From the NCBI GenBank assembly GCA_021325275.1, contig JAJPHL010000047.1, forward strand, positions 1-64,000: 64,000 nt of DNA, in the 5' to 3' direction. Shown here piece after piece: positions 9,248-64,000 of the stretch (its first letter is position 1; every line of letters starts with the position of its first letter). The notes under the pieces are model-generated. The model was given only the letters and a program-made list of their open reading frames with translations, did no database searches and had not been told where the DNA came from. The translations under genes were made by a program, and so were the position numbers. This DNA is from Terriglobia bacterium. Lineage in GTDB: Bacteria > Acidobacteriota > Terriglobia > JAJPHL01.

Positions 9248-10054
9248 GTGACCGAAAAATCCATCCGTGACCTGCTGGGCGAAGTTCGCAACGGGAAGCT
9301 GGGTGTCGACGCGGCTGTCGAGCGATTGCGCCATCTTCCTTTCGAGGATCTCGACTACGCGAAGATCGATCATCATCGCGGCTTGCGTCAGGGAATGCCG
9401 GAAGTGATTCTCGGCTCCGGCAAGCGTCCCGAGCAAGTGGCGGGGATCGTCAAGCGGATGCTGCCGCACTCCACGAACATTTTGATCACGCGCGCCGACG
9501 CGGCGGCTTTCCAGCAAGTGCGCAAGCTCGAAAAGCGCGCGGAATACCACGAGCTATCGCGCGCCATCACCATTCATCGCGACCACACAACGCTCGGCGC
9601 GGGACGCATCGCCGTGGTGGCGGCGGGCACGTCCGATATTCCCGTGGCCGAAGAAGCGGTGGTGACGGCGCGTATCATGGGCAACGACGTGGAGCATCTC
9701 TACGACGTCGGCGTCGCGGGAATCCATCGGCTGATGAGCAATCGCGCGGTGCTGACCAACGCGCGCGTGCTGATCGTGGTCGCGGGCATGGAAGGCGCGT
9801 TGCCCAGCGTTGTCGGAGGACTGGTCGCCGTGCCGGTGATCGCCGTCCCGACGTCGGTCGGCTACGGCGCGAGTTTCAACGGACTCGCCGCGCTGTTGGG
9901 AATGCTGAATAGTTGCGCCTCGAACGTGGTGGTGGTGAACATCGATAACGGGTTTGGCGCGGGGTTTGCGGCGAGTTTGATGAATCGCGTTTGCCACGAG
10001 GGTGAACGCCCAAATCAAAAATCAAAGATCAAAAATCAAAAATCAAAAATGTGA
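9248..10054 (+). CDS. larB: LarB, nickel-pincer cofactor biosynthesis carboxylase/hydrolase
   Basis: A 268-residue protein of the LarB (PurE-like) family. Conserved blocks are [34 protein letters not shown] and [10 protein letters not shown]. LarB carboxylates nicotinic acid adenine dinucleotide at C5 and splits its phosphoanhydride, the first step to the nickel-pincer nucleotide used by lactate racemase-type enzymes. LarC, LarE and LarA are not in the window. The start is GTG at 9248. The last ~14 residues ([13 protein letters not shown]) are encoded by the left arm of a heptamer inverted repeat and are probably not part of the conserved fold. The TGA stop is the first triplet of the hairpin loop. 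Confidence 0.93.
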
Positions 10055-10105
10055 TGTGCCCTCCTCATTTTTGCCTTTTGATTTTTGATCTTTGATTTTT
10101 GATTT
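10012..10105. repeat. Inverted repeat with heptamer (AAATCAA) arms between convergent genes
   Basis: Left arm 10012-10051 and right arm 10066-10105 are 40 bases each and complementary except at two adjacent positions; the loop is 14 bases. Each arm consists of about five tandem 7-base units close to AAATCAA. The left arm encodes the LarB C-terminal tail. The last base of the right arm is the first base of the complement of the TGA stop of the opposing gene. The element could serve as a bidirectional terminator for the two convergent genes. Confidence 0.85.
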
Positions 10106-19931: not shown

Positions 19932-21182
19932 ATGCTAAAGCTCGCGATTCGCGGCGGAACTCCGGTTCGCACAACTCCGTTCCCCTCGTGGCCGGTGTGG
20001 GACGACGCGGAGCGCCGCGGGCTCTCGGAAGTCCTCGAAAGCGGCAATTGGGGCGGATTTCCGTTTCCCAACACGAAAGGCGCGGAGTTCGCGGCGCGTT
20101 TTGCCGCCGTGCACGGCGCGAAGTACGGAATCGCGGCGGCGAATGGTACGGTCGCGATCGAGTTGGCCGTGCAAGCGGCGGGAATTGGCGCGGGGGACGA
20201 GGTGATCGTGCCCGCGTACACCTGGGATTCCACGGCGGGCGCGGTGCTTTTTTCGGGCGGCGTTCCGGTTTTCGCCGACGTCGATCCGGAACGCTATTGC
20301 CTCGATCCCGCGCAGCTTGACGCCGCGCTCTCGCAGCGAACGCGCGCGATTCTGCCCGTGCATCTTGGCATGAATATGGCCGACATGGACGCGATCGGCG
20401 CGTTTGCAGCGAAACACTCGCTCGCGGTGATCGAAGATTGCGCCCACGCGCATGGAGCTTCTTGGAACGGTCGGGGCGCCGGTTCACTCGGAGACGCCGG
20501 CGCGTTCAGTTTTCAGTCGAGCAAGTTGATGAGCGCGGGTGAAGGCGGCATCGTGCTCACGAACAGCGCCGCACTGCATGAACGGGCTTCGGTGCTGATT
20601 AATTGCGGACGCTCGGCGGTGGGCGGAAATTTCCGCGCCATTGGACACAACTATCGCATGACGGAATTTCAAGCCGCCGTCTTATTGGCGCAACTCGATC
20701 GCCTGGACGCGCAAACGGAACGGCGCGAGAAAAACGCCCTTCACTTTGAATCGTGCCTCGCCGGCGTGGAGGGGATCCGCGTGGTGGCGCGCGACCCGCG
20801 GCAGACGCGCCGCGCGATCTATCATTTCGTCTTGCGCTACGACGCGGCACATTTCGGCGTGCCTCGCGACGCATTCGTCGCCGCGCTGGCGGCGGAAGGC
20901 GTTCCGGCGGAAGGCGTGTTTTACGAAGCGGTCTATCGCAGCCCATTATTTCCCGCCGCGCCGGGGACGTTTCGCGTGTTGCCGTGCCCGGTGTCGGAGC
21001 GCGCGGCGTACGAAGAGTCGGTGTGGATTCCGCATAATGTGCTGGAAGGCCGCACGCGCGATGTGGAAGACGCCGCCGCGGCGATTCGCAAGATTGTGGA
21101 CCACATTTCCGAGTTGCGAGGATTCGAGCATCCGTCGATTGCGGAGAAGGGAATGAGCCGGGCGGAGCGGCTTACGGTATGA
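19932..21182 (+). CDS. DegT/DnrJ/EryC1/StrS-type PLP aminotransferase
   Basis: 416 residues. Family marks: VIVPAYTWDSTAGAVLFSGGVP, the cofactor-contacting aspartate in VIEDCAHAHG (D169), and the Schiff-base lysine in FSFQSSKLMSAGEGG (K198). DegT enzymes transaminate keto-sugars or the scyllo-inosose-type precursors of amino-cyclitols, usually from Glu or Gln. The sequence looks closer to the amino-cyclitol/3-amino-5-hydroxybenzoate branch than to sugar-nucleotide enzymes, but this is tentative. Its TGA overlaps the ATG of the GH116 glycosidase (ATGA), so translation is coupled. The enzyme is cytoplasmic while the coupled glycosidase is exported; a role in handling a glycoside-derived amino sugar or cyclitol is possible. 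Confidence 0.88.
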   Translation: MLKLAIRGGTPVRTTPFPSWPVWDDAERRGLSEVLESGNWGGFPFPNTKGAEFAARFAAVHGAKYGIAAANGTVAIELAVQAAGIGAGDEVIVPAYTWDSTAGAVLFSGGVPVFADVDPERYCLDPAQLDAALSQRTRAILPVHLGMNMADMDAIGAFAAKHSLAVIEDCAHAHGASWNGRGAGSLGDAGAFSFQSSKLMSAGEGGIVLTNSAALHERASVLINCGRSAVGGNFRAIGHNYRMTEFQAAVLLAQLDRLDAQTERREKNALHFESCLAGVEGIRVVARDPRQTRRAIYHFVLRYDAAHFGVPRDAFVAALAAEGVPAEGVFYEAVYRSPLFPAAPGTFRVLPCPVSERAAYEESVWIPHNVLEGRTRDVEDAAAAIRKIVDHISELRGFEHPSIAEKGMSRAERLTV

Positions 21183-23728
21183 GGAACACGAAGGCAAAAG
21201 GCAAAAGGCAAAAGTCAAAAGGCAAAAGTTTGGGAGATACGCCTGCCCTCCGATACTTTTGCCTTTTGACTTTTGCCTTTTGCCTTTTGCCTTGCGTTTG
21301 CTTTTCCCAATCCATCCCAAAGGAATCCTGGACTCGCCCCATCGGCGAGCCAATGACCACGCCGATGACCGCCAAGGAAATCATCGACGACGGCCCTTGG
21401 CAAGGCTTGCCGCTCGGCGGCCTGGGCGCGGGCACGATCGGCCGAACTTATCGCGGCGATTTCGCCCGCTGGCATCTCGATATCGGCCGCCACTTTTATC
21501 GCGACGACGTCGTCGATCAATTCAGTTTGCGCGCGCGCATCGGCGATCAAGGTACGGTCGACTCGCGCGTGCTTGCCGTCGATCGCCCCACCGACGGAAC
21601 GCTGTCGTGGTGGAACTGGGACGTCAGCGTGAAGCAGGGTAATCGCTACCACGCGCTTTTTCCCAAAGCGTGGTTCCATTACACCGACCTTCCCACGCCG
21701 GGATTGGAGCTAACCTCCGAGCAATTCTCGCCGTTCATTCCCGGAAACTATAAGGAGTCGAGCTATCCGGTTGGTGTGTTTCGATGGAAGGCCGTGAATC
21801 ACGGCACGGAAAGAATCACCGTGACGCTGATGTTCACTTGGGAAAACATGATCGGCTGGTGGGCCAGCGCCGTGCCGACCCCGGGCGCCTCGGGCGACGA
21901 TCCACCGAAGTATCAACCGCGCTGGGGCGTCAGCGCGGGCAACGTGAACGAGTATCGCGAAGAAAAAATGCCGGGCGGCGCGATGAAGGGAATTGTTCAG
22001 TCGCGACGTGGCGTCGGGACCGACTTTACTGCTTACACGAATTCGGCGCTCGGGCAATACGCGATGGCCACGATGGAGTCGCCGGGCGTCACAGTAACGT
22101 ATTTCGCGAAATTCAATCCCGCCGGCGACGGCGGCGCGGTGTGGAATCCTATGGCGATTCGCGGGGAATTGACGAATCAGAATGACACGTCGCCCGCCGT
22201 GCCGGGAGAGCGCAGCGCGTCCGCGTTGGCCGTGACGTTTGTGCTGGAGCCGGGCGCGCAGCGCGAAATCCCGTTTGTGCTCGCCTGGGATTTGCCGCTA
22301 ATGGTCTTCGGCGATGGCCAAACGCCGCCGGCGACGTATTACAAGCGCTATACAAAATTCTTTGGACGCGACGGCAAGAACGCCTGGGCGATCGCGCGCG
22401 AAGGACTTTTGCGCGGCGCGGAGTGGTCCCAGCAGATCGACGATTGGATGCGTCCGTATCTCGAAGACAAACGCACGCCCGCATGGTACAAGACCGCGCT
22501 CTTCAACGAACTCGCGGCTCTCGTCGACAACGGCACGGCGTGGGAAGACGGTCGCGTCGGCGAGACGGGCGCGGGCGCCGATTTTCCTCCGCCTGGGCGA
22601 TTCAGTTACATGGAGTGTTTTGACTACGCGTTTTACTCGACGCTCGACGTAGAAGCCTACGCGTCGTTCGCGCTGGCAAAATTGTTCCCGGATCTCGACA
22701 AGCAAGAGGCGCGCATGTTCGCGTCGGCGGTGGAGTCGGAAGACCGCCGCGATCACGAGATCGGTTGGAATAAACAGAAACGTCCGCGAAAACTCGCGGG
22801 CGCCGTGCCGATGGACTTAGGCATACCGTTCGAGAGTCCTTGGATGAAGGTTGCGAATTATGCGTGGCAGGACACCAACACTTTGAAAGACGAATCCTCG
22901 AACCTCGTGCTGAAAGTCTGGCGCGACTACGTTTTCACAGGCCGCCGCGACACGGCGTTCCTCCGCGAAACGTGGCCGCACCTGCGCGCGACGCTCGCGT
23001 ACATGAAAAAGCAAGACTCGGACGGCGACGGCCTGCTCGATTCCGCCGGCGTTCCCGATCAAACCTACGACAGTTGGACCATGACCGGCCCGGGCGCATA
23101 TCTCGGCGGATTGTGGATCGCATCGCTTGAAGCGGCCATCGCCATCGGCGACATTGTCGGCGACGAAGCGGCGGTCGTCGAATATCAAGGATGGCTCGAC
23201 AAGGCGCAAAAGAGTTACGAGAGCAAATTGTGGAACGGCATGTACTACGATTTCGACAGCGGCAGCAAGGATCGAAAGGCCGTGATGGCCGATCAACTTT
23301 TCGGGCAGTTTTACGCGCAAGCCACCGGACTGCCCGACATCGTGTCGCGCGCCCATCGCGATTCGGTGCTGAAGACGGTTTATCGCTTGAACGTTCTGGG
23401 ATTTCACGGCGGGAAAATGGGCGCGGTGAACGGAATCATGCCCGACGGCAAGCCCGACACGGTCGACGAACGCTCGAATGCGTCCGAAGTTTGGACGGGC
23501 GTCACGTACGCGCTCGCCGCGTTCATGTACTCGAGCGGAATGAAGGACGAAGCGTGGAAGACGGCCGAAGGAATCTATCGCACCACCTACGAAACCGGCG
23601 GCATGTGGTTCCGCACGCCGGAAGGTTGGAAGGAAAACGCCGGCAAGTTCGACTTCCGCGCGTCGATGTATATGCGTCCGCTGGCCGTCTGGGCGATTCA
23701 ATCGGTGTTGGACCAGGAGAAAAAATGA
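21179..23728 (+). CDS. Secreted GH116 family beta-glycosidase
   Basis: 849 residues. After the signal sequence comes IPKESWTRPIGEP and the GH116 N-terminal beta-domain (LPLGGLGAGTIGRTYRGDFARWHL), then the (alpha/alpha)6 catalytic domain. By comparison with characterised GH116 enzymes, the likely nucleophile is Glu479 in FSYMEC and the acid/base is Asp631 in QTYDSW. Members act on beta-glucosides, beta-xylosides or N-acetylglucosaminides. The signal peptide is unusual: a perfect 39-base inverted repeat encodes both its basic n-region (KAKGKRQKSKGKS) and hydrophobic core (FCLLTFAFCLLPCVC). The start at 21179 is supported by the ATGA overlap with the upstream aminotransferase stop. The stop overlaps the next gene, again by ATGA. 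Confidence 0.92.
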   Translation: MRNTKAKGKRQKSKGKSLGDTPALRYFCLLTFAFCLLPCVCFSQSIPKESWTRPIGEPMTTPMTAKEIIDDGPWQGLPLGGLGAGTIGRTYRGDFARWHLDIGRHFYRDDVVDQFSLRARIGDQGTVDSRVLAVDRPTDGTLSWWNWDVSVKQGNRYHALFPKAWFHYTDLPTPGLELTSEQFSPFIPGNYKESSYPVGVFRWKAVNHGTERITVTLMFTWENMIGWWASAVPTPGASGDDPPKYQPRWGVSAGNVNEYREEKMPGGAMKGIVQSRRGVGTDFTAYTNSALGQYAMATMESPGVTVTYFAKFNPAGDGGAVWNPMAIRGELTNQNDTSPAVPGERSASALAVTFVLEPGAQREIPFVLAWDLPLMVFGDGQTPPATYYKRYTKFFGRDGKNAWAIAREGLLRGAEWSQQIDDWMRPYLEDKRTPAWYKTALFNELAALVDNGTAWEDGRVGETGAGADFPPPGRFSYMECFDYAFYSTLDVEAYASFALAKLFPDLDKQEARMFASAVESEDRRDHEIGWNKQKRPRKLAGAVPMDLGIPFESPWMKVANYAWQDTNTLKDESSNLVLKVWRDYVFTGRRDTAFLRETWPHLRATLAYMKKQDSDGDGLLDSAGVPDQTYDSWTMTGPGAYLGGLWIASLEAAIAIGDIVGDEAAVVEYQGWLDKAQKSYESKLWNGMYYDFDSGSKDRKAVMADQLFGQFYAQATGLPDIVSRAHRDSVLKTVYRLNVLGFHGGKMGAVNGIMPDGKPDTVDERSNASEVWTGVTYALAAFMYSSGMKDEAWKTAEGIYRTTYETGGMWFRTPEGWKENAGKFDFRASMYMRPLAVWAIQSVLDQEKK
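21191..21293. repeat. Perfect inverted repeat with AAAAGGC heptamer arms inside a signal-peptide coding region
   Basis: Arms 21191-21229 and 21255-21293 are 39 bases, perfectly complementary, with a 25-base loop. The arms are tandem 7-base units (AAAAGGC with one AAAAGTC variant). Because 7 is not a multiple of 3, the A-rich arm is read through all frames as Lys/Gly/Gln/Arg and the T-rich arm as Phe/Cys/Leu/Ala. Both arms are translated as residues 5-42 of the GH116 protein. The mRNA could fold into a very stable hairpin just after the start codon. Confidence 0.9.
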
Positions 23729-40425: not shown

Positions 40426-41739
40426 TTACTTTACAAATTCAGGAGATTTTCCTTCGTCCCAAGGATGATAACTCTGCGCGAAGCGAACGCGCTCTCCGAT
40501 TGATGGATGATCGTAGAGCCAAAACTCGATGAACGGCGGCGGATCGGGATCGGCGAGCGCCACTTCGCCGAGAAGCTGGAACGAATCGGCGGCGACGGTT
40601 TGCGAATTCGGCACCAGGCCGTGGATCACCTCGAGACCATAGATGTCAGCTTCGTGCTCCTGATGCCGCGACCACGCCGACGTCACCGGCTCGCCGATGA
40701 ACCCAAACGCCGACATCAGCAGAAGCAGCACGGGGAGTGCCGCCCAATCCGACTGACCACGCACGCCCCAGCGCCCTCCGTAATCCTCGATGAGCCACGC
40801 CATGCCGCGAAATCCTACGTAGAGCGCGACGAACAGCAGCACCGCGAGAAACGCCATCGTCTTCGGGATGTGATGCAGCACATAATGCCCCTGCTCGTGG
40901 CCGAACGTGAACATCAAGTCGGGAAGGGTGCATCGCGCGATCGTCGTGTCCCACACCACCACGCGCTTCGTCGCGCCGAATCCGGTGACGTAGGCGTTGA
41001 GCGATGTGACGTCCTCGCTCGCGTCCATCTCGAACATGCGGTCGACGGGAATGTCGAGTCCGCCGCGCCGCGTAACTTTTTGCACCGCCGCGACCACTTC
41101 CGGGTGCTTGACGTTCAGCGGCGTGAACTTGTGAAACATCGGATCGATCACGACCGGCGTGATGAAAACGAGGAACGCGATCAGCGGCAGCGACGCCAGC
41201 CAGCACCAAATCCACCAACGCCGGGGACTCCAGCGGATCAATCCAAAAAGGATGAGCGCGAAGACCGTGCCAAAGAGGATGCTGAGGAATTCGCCTTTCG
41301 CTTGATCCCAAGACCAAGCGCCCCAGCCTTGCACCGATTGTCCATAGACGCGCTCGAGATGCTGCAAGTAGACTTCATTCGGCAGCGTAGGAAGATCGGT
41401 GAGCAACGTGAGTAGCGGCGCGAAGATCAGTCCTTGCACCCACCAGCGTTGTGTGGCCGATTCTGCCAGCGATCGCGTGCGCGCGGACAATCCGAATCCG
41501 AGCACCCCGAGGAGGATCGCAAGACCCCAGATCTCGTCCACGAAGTGCATTGTGTACTTGATCCGCGAAAACTTGATCGCGCGTTCGCGATCTTGAGGAT
41601 TTAGCTTGTACTCGCGTTGCTGGCAGAACAATGGGGCCGCTAGAACGAACAACAACACAAAGGCAACCGCAGATGAACGCAGATGAACGCAGATATCGGA
41701 GCAGCGTTTCGTTGTTAATCTGCGTTTATCTGCGTTCAT
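40426..41739 (-). CDS. M48 (Ste24-like) integral-membrane zinc metalloprotease
   Basis: 437 residues with about six transmembrane helices. Zinc motif HEQGH at 281-285 (FTFGHEQGHYVLHH) and the third ligand Glu363 in QEHEADIYG; the layout is that of CAAX-prenyl-protease Ste24/HtpX relatives. Bacterial members degrade damaged membrane proteins. It is located between two acyl-CoA dehydrogenase genes on the same strand. The start at 41739 lies inside a dyad repeat, whose arms encode MNADKRRL and the following residues up to AVA of the signal sequence, and FVLLFVLAAPLFCQ completes it. Longer frame upstream (to 42426) is antisense-like noise over the previous gene and is not used. Confidence 0.88.
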   Translation of the reverse strand: MNADKRRLTTKRCSDICVHLRSSAVAFVLLFVLAAPLFCQQREYKLNPQDRERAIKFSRIKYTMHFVDEIWGLAILLGVLGFGLSARTRSLAESATQRWWVQGLIFAPLLTLLTDLPTLPNEVYLQHLERVYGQSVQGWGAWSWDQAKGEFLSILFGTVFALILFGLIRWSPRRWWIWCWLASLPLIAFLVFITPVVIDPMFHKFTPLNVKHPEVVAAVQKVTRRGGLDIPVDRMFEMDASEDVTSLNAYVTGFGATKRVVVWDTTIARCTLPDLMFTFGHEQGHYVLHHIPKTMAFLAVLLFVALYVGFRGMAWLIEDYGGRWGVRGQSDWAALPVLLLLMSAFGFIGEPVTSAWSRHQEHEADIYGLEVIHGLVPNSQTVAADSFQLLGEVALADPDPPPFIEFWLYDHPSIGERVRFAQSYHPWDEGKSPEFVK

Positions 41740-41749
41740 CTGCGGTTGC
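41663..41749. repeat. Inverted repeat with 10-base tandem arms at the M48 start
   Basis: Arms 41663-41694 and 41718-41749 (32 bases, one mismatch), loop 23. Arms are tandem units of GCAGATGAAC (10 bases). The M48 ATG is within one arm and both arms are translated into its N-terminus. The element lies 8 bases after the upstream fadE stop. Confidence 0.85.
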
Positions 41750-41756
41750 TTTTTTC

Positions 41757-44798: not shown

Positions 44799-44868
44799 AG
44801 TGCTGAGTCCTGAGTGCTGAGTCCTGAGTTTGGTTTCGCTCAGCACTCAGGACTCAGCACTCAGGACT
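44799..44868. repeat. Inverted repeat of AGTGCTG/AGTCCTG heptamers between fadN and fadA
   Basis: A left block at 44799-44828 of alternating AGTGCTG and AGTCCTG units and a right block at 44839-44868 with their complements, so that 23 bases pair in more than one register. It starts one base after the TAG of fadN. The same unit sequence occurs again at 53.2 kb, so this is a dispersed repeat. Confidence 0.85.
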
Positions 44869-53154: not shown

Positions 53155-53230
53155 AGTGCTGAGTGCTGAGTCCTGAGTGCTGAGTCCTGAGTTTTTTCCA
53201 CTCAGCACTCAGGACTCAGCACTCAGGACT
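53155..53230. repeat. Inverted repeat of AGTGCTG/AGTCCTG heptamers, second copy
   Basis: Left block 53155-53192, right block 53200-53230, loop TTTTTCC-like 7 bases; 24 bases (53169-53192 with 53207-53230) pair perfectly. Same heptamers as at 44.8 kb. The right block encodes the last residues (SPEC) and stop of the O-antigen ligase. Confidence 0.85.
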
Positions 53231-61170: not shown

Positions 61171-64000
61171 ATGGGGATGATGAAAGCGGCCGCCCTTCTC
61201 TTGTTGCTCCCATTGGCGCACGCGGCGTCTGGAAACGGTTCCGTCGTTTCCAAAGACGGTTCCGGCGACTTCCGCACGGTGCAGGAAGCGGTCAACGCCG
61301 CGCCGTCGCACTCGCACACGCGCTTCACGATTCACGTGAAGCCCGGCAAGTACGACGAAATCGTCGTGATTCCCTCGGAAAAAACTTGGCTAGCACTTGT
61401 CGGTGACGACGCGATGTCGACGATCATCACCGGCAACCGCCATACCGGCATGCCGCTTCCGCCAGGCGTGTCGCCCGGCGGCCGCGCGACTATGATCACG
61501 TTCGATACGCCGACCGTTTTCGTGCAAGCCACCGATTTCCTCGCCGAAAACATCACGTTTGAGAATTCCGCCGGCAATGTCGGGCAAGCGGTCGCGCTCA
61601 CGATCATGGCCGATCGCGGTGTCTTCCGGAACTGCCGGTTCCTCGGCTATCAGGACACGCTGCTTGCGCAAGCCGGGCGGCAATACTTCGATCACTGCTA
61701 CATCGAAGGCGCGACGGATTTCATTTTCGGCGGATCGCGCGCGTTCTTCGATCACTGTCACATCCACGCGACGGCCAACGGTTATCTCACGGGCGCGAAT
61801 ACGACCAAGGATCAGCCGATCGGCTACGTTTTTTCCGAATGCCAAGTCACCGGCGCGCCAGGGGTACAAACTTTTCTCGGGCGGCCGTGGCGTCCGTGGG
61901 CTGCGGCGGCCTTTTTGAACACGGAAATGTCGGACGTGGTGCGTCCGGCGGGTTGGAACAGTTCGAACGATCCGGCGCGCGAGAAGACCGTGCGCTACGC
62001 CGAGTTCGGGAGTCGCGGAGTAGGCGGGGAAATGAAAGATCGCGTGGCATGGGCGCGACGCCTCACCGCCGCCGAGGCCGCGGATTACTCGATGGAAAAA
62101 GTGCTTGCCGGCGACGATGGATGGGATCCGCGGACTGGCACTGTGAAGACCCGCGTCCGCGTGATTCGCGCGACGGGCGTGCGGAAACCCGTTTTGCCCG
62201 CGGGACAAATGCTCGTCGCTATTGTCAACCGCGGCGAATCGAACGCCACCCTGCGCTTGGCCTACAGCGAGAACGGCGTAGTGTGGGAGGCGATTCGCGC
62301 TCCGATCGCTTGGATGCCCACTGGAAAGCACGTCCGTGATGCGAGATTCCTCCGCGGCCCCGACGACGTCTTTCACGTCGTGTGGGCGGGCGATCCGGGC
62401 GAGGGTATCGTGTACTCGAGCACGTCCGACTTTGTGGAAAAGAAGGACTCGCGGTTTTTTGAGGCAATGGTCGGGCAAAATGCGCTCAATATCGCATCGC
62501 CGAACATTTTTTACGACGAAGCGTCAATGGAATTCGTGATCACGTGGTCGTCGACGCTCGCGAAGAACGCGATCCAGGCGTTTCAAGAGGAAGTGGGAAC
62601 GAATCCGCGCATCTGGTACGCAACGACGCGCGATTTCAAAAAGCTTTCGCCGCCCGCCTTGTTATTCGACAATAATTACGCCACTCGCGATGCCGTGATT
62701 CTGCGCGACGGTGCACGATTCGCCTTGCTGCACTCCGATAGCACGTTTCCCGTGCACAGTTTGCGCGTGGCTTTCTCCAGAAATGTAGGGGGCCCGTGGG
62801 GAGCATCGTCCGACGCCTTCGCGGATAGATTCACGGAATCCCCCGCGGCGGTGCGTGTCGGTGATGCCTGGTGGATTTACGGCTTCAACTCGGAAACCGG
62901 CGCTTCCAATCTGTGGACCACTCGCGATTTCCGCACGTTCACCGAAACTTCGGGCGTGCAGATGCCCAAGGACTATCACCTAACCAGTGTCATGATGCTG
63001 CCCAAGAGCGTTGTTGAATCCCTCCGCGCCGCGCTAAAGCTGGGCGAGCCGTACAACCCGCCGGTGGAACCGACGTGGCACATGCTCGAACGGCCGATCA
63101 AAATCGCGTTGGCCGGCGACTCCACCGTGAACGACGAAGGCGGCTGGGGAATCGGCTTCCGCGCGTCATTTGGACAGCCGGTGAAGGTCGTGAATCTCGC
63201 CCGCAATGGACGCTCGACGAAAAGCTTCCGCGACGAAGGATCATGGAATAAAGTGCTCGCTGAGCACGCCGACTATGTGCTGATCCAATTCGGCCACAAT
63301 GACGTTCCCGGCAAAGGCGCCGACCGTGAGACGGACGCCGCCACAACGTATCGCGAAAATCTTTCGCGCTTCGTCGACGAAGTTCGCGCCTATGGGGGCA
63401 AGCCGGTGCTCGTGACGTCGATTGTCCGCCGCAATTTCGACGAACACGGCAGGATCAAAGCGGATTCGCTCGTGCCTTACGTCGAAGCGGCGCGCGAGGT
63501 CGCGCGAGAAAAGCAAGTTCTGCTAATCGATTTGTACGAACAAACCAAAGCGCAAGCCGAAGCGCGCGGTGTCGCAGGCAGCGAGGCTTTGGGTCGAAGA
63601 GACGCGCAGGGCAAACTCGACACAACCCATCTCGGCCCGATCGCACAAAAGGAAATCGGCGTGATGGCCGCGAAAAGTTTGGTTTCCGCCGTGCCGGAGC
63701 TGGCGCCGTATTTACACGAGCTGATCCTGTGGCGCGACGCGATGCACCAATCGTCCTCTTGGTACGAAAGCGCGGAGGCGATGCGTGTGGCCGATAATTT
63801 ACTCCTCTATCAGCACGACAACGGCGGATGGGACAAGAACATCGATATGGCCGCGCCGCTTGGTCCTGTGGAATTGGCCGGGCTCGAGAAAGAGAAACAC
63901 ACCAGCACCGGCCACACCACCATGGACAACGACGCCACGTGGACGCAAACGCAATTCCTGGCGCGCGTCGTCCCGTTTGCGAAAGGGCAGCGCGCCGAGA
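61171..64000 (+). CDS. Multimodular secreted pectin-degrading enzyme (CE8 / GH43-like / CE12 / PL10), C-terminus beyond window
   Basis: Open frame to the window edge (943 codons). Signal peptide (MMKAAALLLLLPLAHAA). Residues 20-330 are a CE8 pectinesterase: GYQDTL at 159-164, DFIFGG 183-188, LGRPWRPW 236-243, containing the two catalytic Asp and Arg. Residues ~330-640 look like a five-bladed propeller of GH43/62 type (VNRGESNATLRLAYS, VVWAGDPGEGIVYSSTSDF, WYATTRDFKKL). Residues ~645-850 are an SGNH/CE12 rhamnogalacturonan acetylesterase: LAGDSTVND (Ser651), FGHND (His709, Asn710), DTTH (Asp817, His820). From ~860 a PL10 pectate lyase begins (WYESAEAMRVADNLLLYQHD, GGWDKNID, MDNDATWTQTQFLARV). 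Together it would remove methyl and acetyl groups and cut the backbone. Module names are from motifs only. Confidence 0.85.
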   Translation, partial: MGMMKAAALLLLLPLAHAASGNGSVVSKDGSGDFRTVQEAVNAAPSHSHTRFTIHVKPGKYDEIVVIPSEKTWLALVGDDAMSTIITGNRHTGMPLPPGVSPGGRATMITFDTPTVFVQATDFLAENITFENSAGNVGQAVALTIMADRGVFRNCRFLGYQDTLLAQAGRQYFDHCYIEGATDFIFGGSRAFFDHCHIHATANGYLTGANTTKDQPIGYVFSECQVTGAPGVQTFLGRPWRPWAAAAFLNTEMSDVVRPAGWNSSNDPAREKTVRYAEFGSRGVGGEMKDRVAWARRLTAAEAADYSMEKVLAGDDGWDPRTGTVKTRVRVIRATGVRKPVLPAGQMLVAIVNRGESNATLRLAYSENGVVWEAIRAPIAWMPTGKHVRDARFLRGPDDVFHVVWAGDPGEGIVYSSTSDFVEKKDSRFFEAMVGQNALNIASPNIFYDEASMEFVITWSSTLAKNAIQAFQEEVGTNPRIWYATTRDFKKLSPPALLFDNNYATRDAVILRDGARFALLHSDSTFPVHSLRVAFSRNVGGPWGASSDAFADRFTESPAAVRVGDAWWIYGFNSETGASNLWTTRDFRTFTETSGVQMPKDYHLTSVMMLPKSVVESLRAALKLGEPYNPPVEPTWHMLERPIKIALAGDSTVNDEGGWGIGFRASFGQPVKVVNLARNGRSTKSFRDEGSWNKVLAEHADYVLIQFGHNDVPGKGADRETDAATTYRENLSRFVDEVRAYGGKPVLVTSIVRRNFDEHGRIKADSLVPYVEAAREVAREKQVLLIDLYEQTKAQAEARGVAGSEALGRRDAQGKLDTTHLGPIAQKEIGVMAAKSLVSAVPELAPYLHELILWRDAMHQSSSWYESAEAMRVADNLLLYQHDNGGWDKNIDMAAPLGPVELAGLEKEKHTSTGHTTMDNDATWTQTQFLARVVPFAKGQRAE

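Follow-up and report, generated by a model that had tools for sequence, protein, structure and literature searches.

A perfect inverted repeat of heptamers lies inside the 5' end of a GH116 glycosidase gene in the DNA analysed here, a stretch of 64,000 nucleotides of a Terriglobia bacterium (positions 1 to 64,000 of contig JAJPHL010000047.1, assembly GCA_021325275.1; hereafter the window). We consider it likely, with a probability of about 0.75, that this dyad is a copy of a dispersed family which has come to lie in frame and now codes for the n-region and hydrophobic core of a predicted signal peptide. A member of a family of hairpins made of heptamer arrays would thus occupy the signal-peptide-coding part of the gene, with the host contributing the start codon and the cleavage region and the dyad contributing what lies between. 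Insertion of such an element between start codon and cleavage site would tend to rebuild a Sec signal peptide in any frame and either orientation, provided that the loop is open, and insertions at this position would persist, whereas those elsewhere in coding sequence would not.

The dyad is 103 bp long and consists of two 39-bp arms, perfect complements of each other, around a 25-bp loop, with the heptamers in the order GGC-GGC-GGC-GTC-GGC. On the forward strand, the A-rich arm (21191-21229; AAGGCAA three times, then AAGTCAA, AAGGCAA and AAGT) reads KAKGKRQKSKGKS and would form the basic n-region, the loop (21230-21254) reads LGDTPALR, and the T-rich complementary arm (21255-21293) reads YFCLLTFAFCLLP(C) and would form the hydrophobic core. 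As a preliminary description of this DNA had stated, both arms are translated; beginning at ATG 21179, the frame stays open until its stop at 23728, and its 849-residue product begins MRNTKAKGKRQKSKGKSLGDTPALRYFCLLTFAFCLLPCVCFSQSIPKESW. The dyad accounts for residues 5-39, and the 45 residues before the conserved IPK consist of MRNT, the translated dyad and CVCFSQS. The last of these (21294-21313) is the putative c-region, with candidate signal peptidase I sites, judged by eye, between CFS and QS or between SQS and IPK. At the GC content of the window, such a 39-bp inverted repeat has a random expectation of about 1e-16 in 64 kb, which rules out chance. An inverted chimera produced during assembly was also rejected, given that 23 dyads repeat these arms with other loops and that unpaired arrays exist too. 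Beyond the arms, dyads of this family (family A; for instance C49:119609 and window 21180-21310) are often A- or purine-rich leftward and CGTTTT- or pyrimidine-rich rightward. The element may be longer than its arms, in which case some of CVCFS would be derived from it.

The gene (21179-23728, forward strand) is assigned to GH116 through PF12215 at residues 76-416 (302.9 bits; cut-off 30.2) and PF04685 at residues 473-840 (439.6 bits; cut-off 26.3). Its nearest named relatives are from Silvibacterium and Granulicella (44-46% identity), which points to an acidobacterium as the probable host, and alignments with relatives in the PDB (5bvu and others, named beta-glucosidase or glucosylceramidase) start at residue 45. 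Homology sets in at residue 45-46, with IPKxxW, immediately past the dyad, in agreement with the earlier claim that the conserved part of the enzyme follows it directly. Comparison of orthologues identifies this start of the mature enzyme as IPKxxWxRxIG (21314-21352).

Immediately upstream lies a DegT/DnrJ/EryC1 aminotransferase gene (19932-21182, forward strand), whose TGA shares bases with ATG 21179 in an ATGA overlap. The preliminary description had taken this overlap to make the start firm. The overlap is there, but a start at ATG 21179 is likely rather than firm, since TTG 21230 would give a shorter and more conventional n-region. The other in-frame candidates are TTG 21266 and TTG 21287, which like TTG 21230 fall within the dyad, and ATG 21353. 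Because no start codon separates the dyad from IPK in this frame, the conserved N terminus can be reached only via dyad sequence, and any product that includes it must have dyad sequence, whole or in part, as its leader. A start after the dyad, at ATG 21353, had been named beforehand as an outcome that would speak against the proposal; it was rejected, as it would delete the IPKxxWxRxIG motif that the orthologues conserve. A gene caller based on codon usage nevertheless places the start there, losing both the dyad and the motif, which is a warning to annotators.

What ordinarily stands in this position was established from the orthologue in a genome of the same order (G001, 60% identity) and those in about 20 genomes of the class. 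All have an ordinary signal peptide where the GH116 dyad lies, ending no more than a few residues from IPKxxWxRxIG; in the same-order genome the protein begins MTLRLMGVLLCLAACLPAAE, directly followed by IPKVAW. Small residues occupy positions -3 and -1 of the candidate cleavage sites of GH116, and comparable ones are found in the orthologues just before IPK. The comparison gave no intact, unrelated signal peptide downstream of the dyad, the other outcome that had been named as adverse, and GH116 contains neither a second native signal peptide there nor any other hydrophobic stretch before IPK. As had been proposed, the A-rich arm supplies a basic n-region (charge +8) and the T-rich arm a hydrophobic core of some 10 residues near the N terminus, the order of features expected of a substrate of Sec and signal peptidase I. 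The maximal hydropathy of the core over 10 residues is 2.69, compared with 1.85-3.03 in the native signal peptides of the orthologues; the cores of well-known Escherichia coli signal peptides reach 1.92-3.08. A lipoprotein signal was rejected by eye, the sequence LLPC having proline before the cysteine and hence no lipobox.

The clearest record of an insertion event comes from a gene for a LolA-like protein elsewhere in the same genome (PF17131; C62:79058). Its ATG sits inside the 3' end of an upstream FtsX-like gene (C terminus VRGSLVEALEYE*), and this overlap, together with the C-terminal sequence, is conserved in those orthologues where it is readable. The signal peptide has 15-18 codons in the orthologues and 50 here, that is, 16 codons plus the 34 of a 102-nt dyad. 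The host remainder is MNEANA and LLLSGSRCLAQ, followed by DAR, with a slack of one residue at the boundary. It follows from this codon arithmetic that the dyad was inserted in frame between the n-region and the core, with nothing lost. That the element can replace or lengthen signal peptides already present is well supported. Of the earlier suggestion that repeat insertion can create or replace signal peptides, this case bears out replacement, by insertion into an existing signal peptide; creation from nothing found no such support.

Besides GH116, the element supplies the n- and h-regions, read in frame, in seven genes whose products are exported or probably so. One is the LolA-like gene; next to it, and overlapping its stop with its own start, is one for an outer-membrane-like protein (C62:78214); the others encode a protein on contig C6 (MKAKGKNEKAPFHPFAFCLLPFAFCLAFSGLLHGQ), a TPM_phosphatase (PF04536; C8), a PF08924 protein (C55), a pectinesterase (PF01095; C72:90136) and a protein at C72:80516 in which a T-rich array stands alone, as MKPFR-TFAFRLLTFAFCL-PLSA. 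Signal peptides in orthologues back the exported status of the GH116, LolA-like and pectinesterase proteins, and from the nature of their families we take the TPM_phosphatase and PF08924 proteins to be exported as well. The outer-membrane-like, C6 and C72:80516 proteins are probably exported, to judge by the leader itself and their general look. At C62:78214-81910 (L094-L095), the FtsX-like permease, LolA-like and outer-membrane-like genes form an operon trio in which each has a heptamer dyad at its 5' end; in the last two the dyad codes for the signal peptide. In the window, the large open frame at 61177-64752 contains another pectinesterase-like region (61246-62130), which shares 45% identity with the enzyme of C72.

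The indifference of the element to frame and strand has a simple arithmetic cause. Because 7 = 1 mod 3, a heptamer array yields one and the same seven-residue cycle in all frames, and the dyad structure puts a basic stretch ahead of a hydrophobic one on both strands. An AAAAGGC array reads KAKGKRQ and its complement FCLLPFA, with stops in neither. Of the 1,170 different heptamer dyads, no more than 21 combine freedom from stops with a basic/hydrophobic reading in this sense, and AAAAGGC is one of four among these with a net charge of at least +4. All three reading phases are represented, phase 0 by GH116, phase 1 by C62:78214 and phase 2 by the LolA-like gene. When the 23 dyads of the family were read in silico in their 138 frames, 72 were open, stops arising mostly from the loops, and 50 were both open and signal-like, compared with 26 of 6,900 frames from shuffled sequences and 6 of 330 from other dyad families.

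In the 6.86-Mb genome that carries the GH116 locus (G000), the heptamer pattern has 301 matches with up to two mismatches, whereas its reversed control has none. BLAST searches and the reading of individual stretches give a family of 40 elements. Of these, 23 are dyads in which both arms contain two units or more; they have their arms in common and differ in their loops. Long AAAAGGC tandem arrays are found at contig ends of C7, C12, C42, C47, C56 and C75, and because the assembly breaks at such arrays the count is a lower bound. Most elements are in short intergenic gaps. No gene body was found to contain one, whether in the whole catalogue or in an unbiased sample of 849 kb (11 elements), and elements that touch genes do so where the signal peptide is coded, as an array at the 5' end, or at the C terminus. 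Thus a MurQ-like protein (C13:182578, L171) seems to carry a lysine-rich N-terminal extension coded by the array, VKARGKRQKAKGKSE, no alternative start lying close by, and dyads at C62:26440 and C38:29569 give lysine-rich C-terminal tails to GlmU (...NEGKRQKAKDKRQK) and to the product of C38:28272 (...GEGKRQKAKVKRQK), respectively. Neighbours that are cytosolic or in the membrane (AccC, TruB, TldD, GspE, the FtsX-like protein and a histidine kinase) start after the element.

Among 299 genomes of the class, 8 contain the 24-nt pattern of the family, this genome being one of them; it is absent from the same-order genome G001. In another genome of the class (G171; L149), the core of a likely signal peptide (ESRLFAFCLLAFAFCLLPCSSSAAD...) in a protein of more than 370 residues consists of a heptamer array. 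There (contig C49; L149/L256), a CCCGAGT array (RVPSPESR) and then the heptamer array FAFCLLAFAFCLLP make up the N terminus of a probable exported protein. Other dyads are also present in G000: in the window, intergenic heptamer dyads lie at 10012-10105 (AAATCAA) and at 44799-44868 and 53155-53230 (AGTGCTG/AGTCCTG), and the genome holds 9-mer and 10-mer dyads as well (CACAGAGGA and ACGCAGATGA). As potential signal peptides the window's remaining dyad families, including a 10-mer at 41659-41753, were rejected, most of their frames containing stops and 0-3% being signal-like.

Several observations weigh against the view that the GH116 dyad serves as an export signal. Export is itself predicted here, from N-terminal features and hydropathy, as are cleavage by signal peptidase and the choice of start codon. 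The n-regions coded by the dyads are unusually long and charged, with 16-36 residues ahead of the core and charges of +3 to +11; that of GH116, at about 25 strongly basic residues, is atypically long. Only about 11 host residues of GH116 lie outside the dyad, fewer than in a normal signal peptide, so some of the original sequence must have been lost or altered, unlike the clean insertion in the LolA-like gene. Finally, a very stable hairpin begins 12 nt past the GH116 ATG and would be expected to lower initiation, a cost that coupling to the upstream aminotransferase gene could perhaps ease. There are several alternatives. Translation might start in the loop, at TTG 21230, or at TTG 21266, so that the T-rich arm alone would be the signal peptide and the A-rich arm an untranslated leader. 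The TTG codons are in frame, the product from the loop (MGDTPALRYFCLLTFAFCLLPCVCFSQS) has a more conventional length and a shorter n-region, and the C72:80516 protein does use a T-rich array alone, after MKPFR; the overlap of ATG 21179 with the upstream stop is, however, a common arrangement for coupling, an ATG closely precedes the dyad in the other cases as well, and TTG is a rarer start that would here sit in a hairpin loop, all of which makes such a start unlikely. A length and charge outside the usual range, and perfect arms that may betray a recent insertion, could instead mean that the insertion harms export and that GH116 is on its way to becoming a pseudogene or a cytoplasmic enzyme. 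This seems very improbable for a gene with an intact frame, two complete domains and a core as hydrophobic as native ones, the more so as eight intact genes show the same arrangement.

The dyad might also be mainly an RNA or DNA device between operon genes, acting in mRNA processing, attenuation or the tuning of expression, with its signal-peptide reading a by-product devoid of function. The hairpins are very stable (that of GH116 alone folds to about -74 kcal/mol, and the surrounding 221-nt region has a folding z of -9.7 against dinucleotide shuffles), and short intergenic gaps house most copies. At the eight exported or probably exported genes, however, the element replaces the signal peptide rather than preceding it, no other one being present, whereas the three exported genes near elements that retain their own have the element at least 97 nt upstream (C49:119609 on both sides, and C17:207916); we judge a mainly nucleic acid role improbable. 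At the other extreme, elements might home to signal-peptide regions or be selected there because they confer or raise export. About 7 of 36 elements are at signal-peptide codons, compared with about 3.3 expected at the permissiveness of intergenic DNA (P of about 0.04, on the assumption of some 1,100 exported genes with 66 nt each), and the dyad has a length that is a multiple of 3 in 5 of 7 signal-peptide cases but in 3 of the 14 remaining ones (P = 0.056). Neither excess is strong, and each hinges on assumptions. On these rough figures the density of elements in signal-peptide codons is about that of intergenic DNA, or a little higher, for which tolerance would be enough and positive selection is unneeded; targeting or adaptation is decidedly unlikely.

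A rebuilt signal peptide, tolerated where it falls, would explain why genes accept a dispersed repeat at just one type of position. It does not follow that every dyad of this kind close to a 5' end is an export signal, as had been suggested: this would hold for the AAAAGGC type in eight genes and is too broad as a generalization, about half of the dyads that adjoin gene starts lying ahead of the gene's own start codon where the product is cytosolic or in the membrane. That AAAAGGC-type dyads and arrays are a general module, blind to frame and strand, by which export signals in bacteria are repeatedly replaced and sometimes newly created, is a tentative proposal. If true, repeat sequence would be a recurrent source of signal-peptide turnover, and a multicopy element in one genome, with a simple reason for working in any frame or orientation, makes that idea directly testable.

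Several known systems share features with this family. It resembles miniature inverted-repeat transposable elements and Rickettsia palindromic elements (RPEs) in its dispersed copies with terminal inverted repeats, here 23 dyads with a common arm order, although no clear flanking direct repeats indicative of target-site duplication were found at 20 dyads (mean 1.05 nt compared with 0.63 in shuffled sequence, P = 0.05). The short tandemly repeated repetitive sequences (STRRs) of cyanobacteria are dispersed, many-copy tandem units of 7 nt. The present family is structurally like them, with a period of 7 in both arms and dispersed 7-nt units, and differs in being paired as dyads, in its fixed unit order and in being translated as signal peptides. 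REP (repetitive extragenic palindromic) and REPIN elements have a linked RAYT transposase; the genome studied here has five matches to Y1_Tnp (PF01797), none so far linked to the present family, whose arms are heptamer arrays with variable loops. REP/REPIN elements are imperfect palindromes of 20-40 nt, with large classes tagged GTAG or CGTC (PMC3733652). Heptameric short repeats of bacteria are noted in PMC4692102, and the literature searches made returned no report of AAAAGGC-type dyads. RPEs have entered a large number of conserved, mutually unrelated genes in frame and are translated there (PMC10969869); they too are palindromic repeats, but they lie within the coding sequences of metabolic genes, whereas the present family has no internal insertions and is confined to intergenic DNA, signal-peptide positions and gene ends. 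A survey of signal-peptide gain and loss in Enterobacterales found insertion or deletion of the whole signal peptide to be a main route and tested transposable elements as a cause, ISEScan detecting none near the N termini concerned (PMC5952966); heptamer dyads, which are not insertion sequences, would not be sought by a scan of that type. A further parallel is the palindromic RU-2/YPAL element of Yersinia, which forms residues 1-30 of the 41-residue signal peptide predicted by SignalP for YPO1552, whose homologues elsewhere have unrelated signal sequences (Delihas 2007, PMC2759123; PMC2229807). It too is a small dispersed palindrome that makes up part of a signal peptide, but a single locus is concerned, its product is small and putatively exported, and the 168-bp element is not described as heptameric; the present family does so in at least eight genes of one genome. 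A palindromic repeat as part of a signal peptide and palindromic elements in frame are therefore already known, from Yersinia and Rickettsia, respectively. What is new is the recurrence, the independence of frame and strand and the arithmetic behind it, the in-frame insertion located by comparison with orthologues and the known enzyme families that act as hosts.

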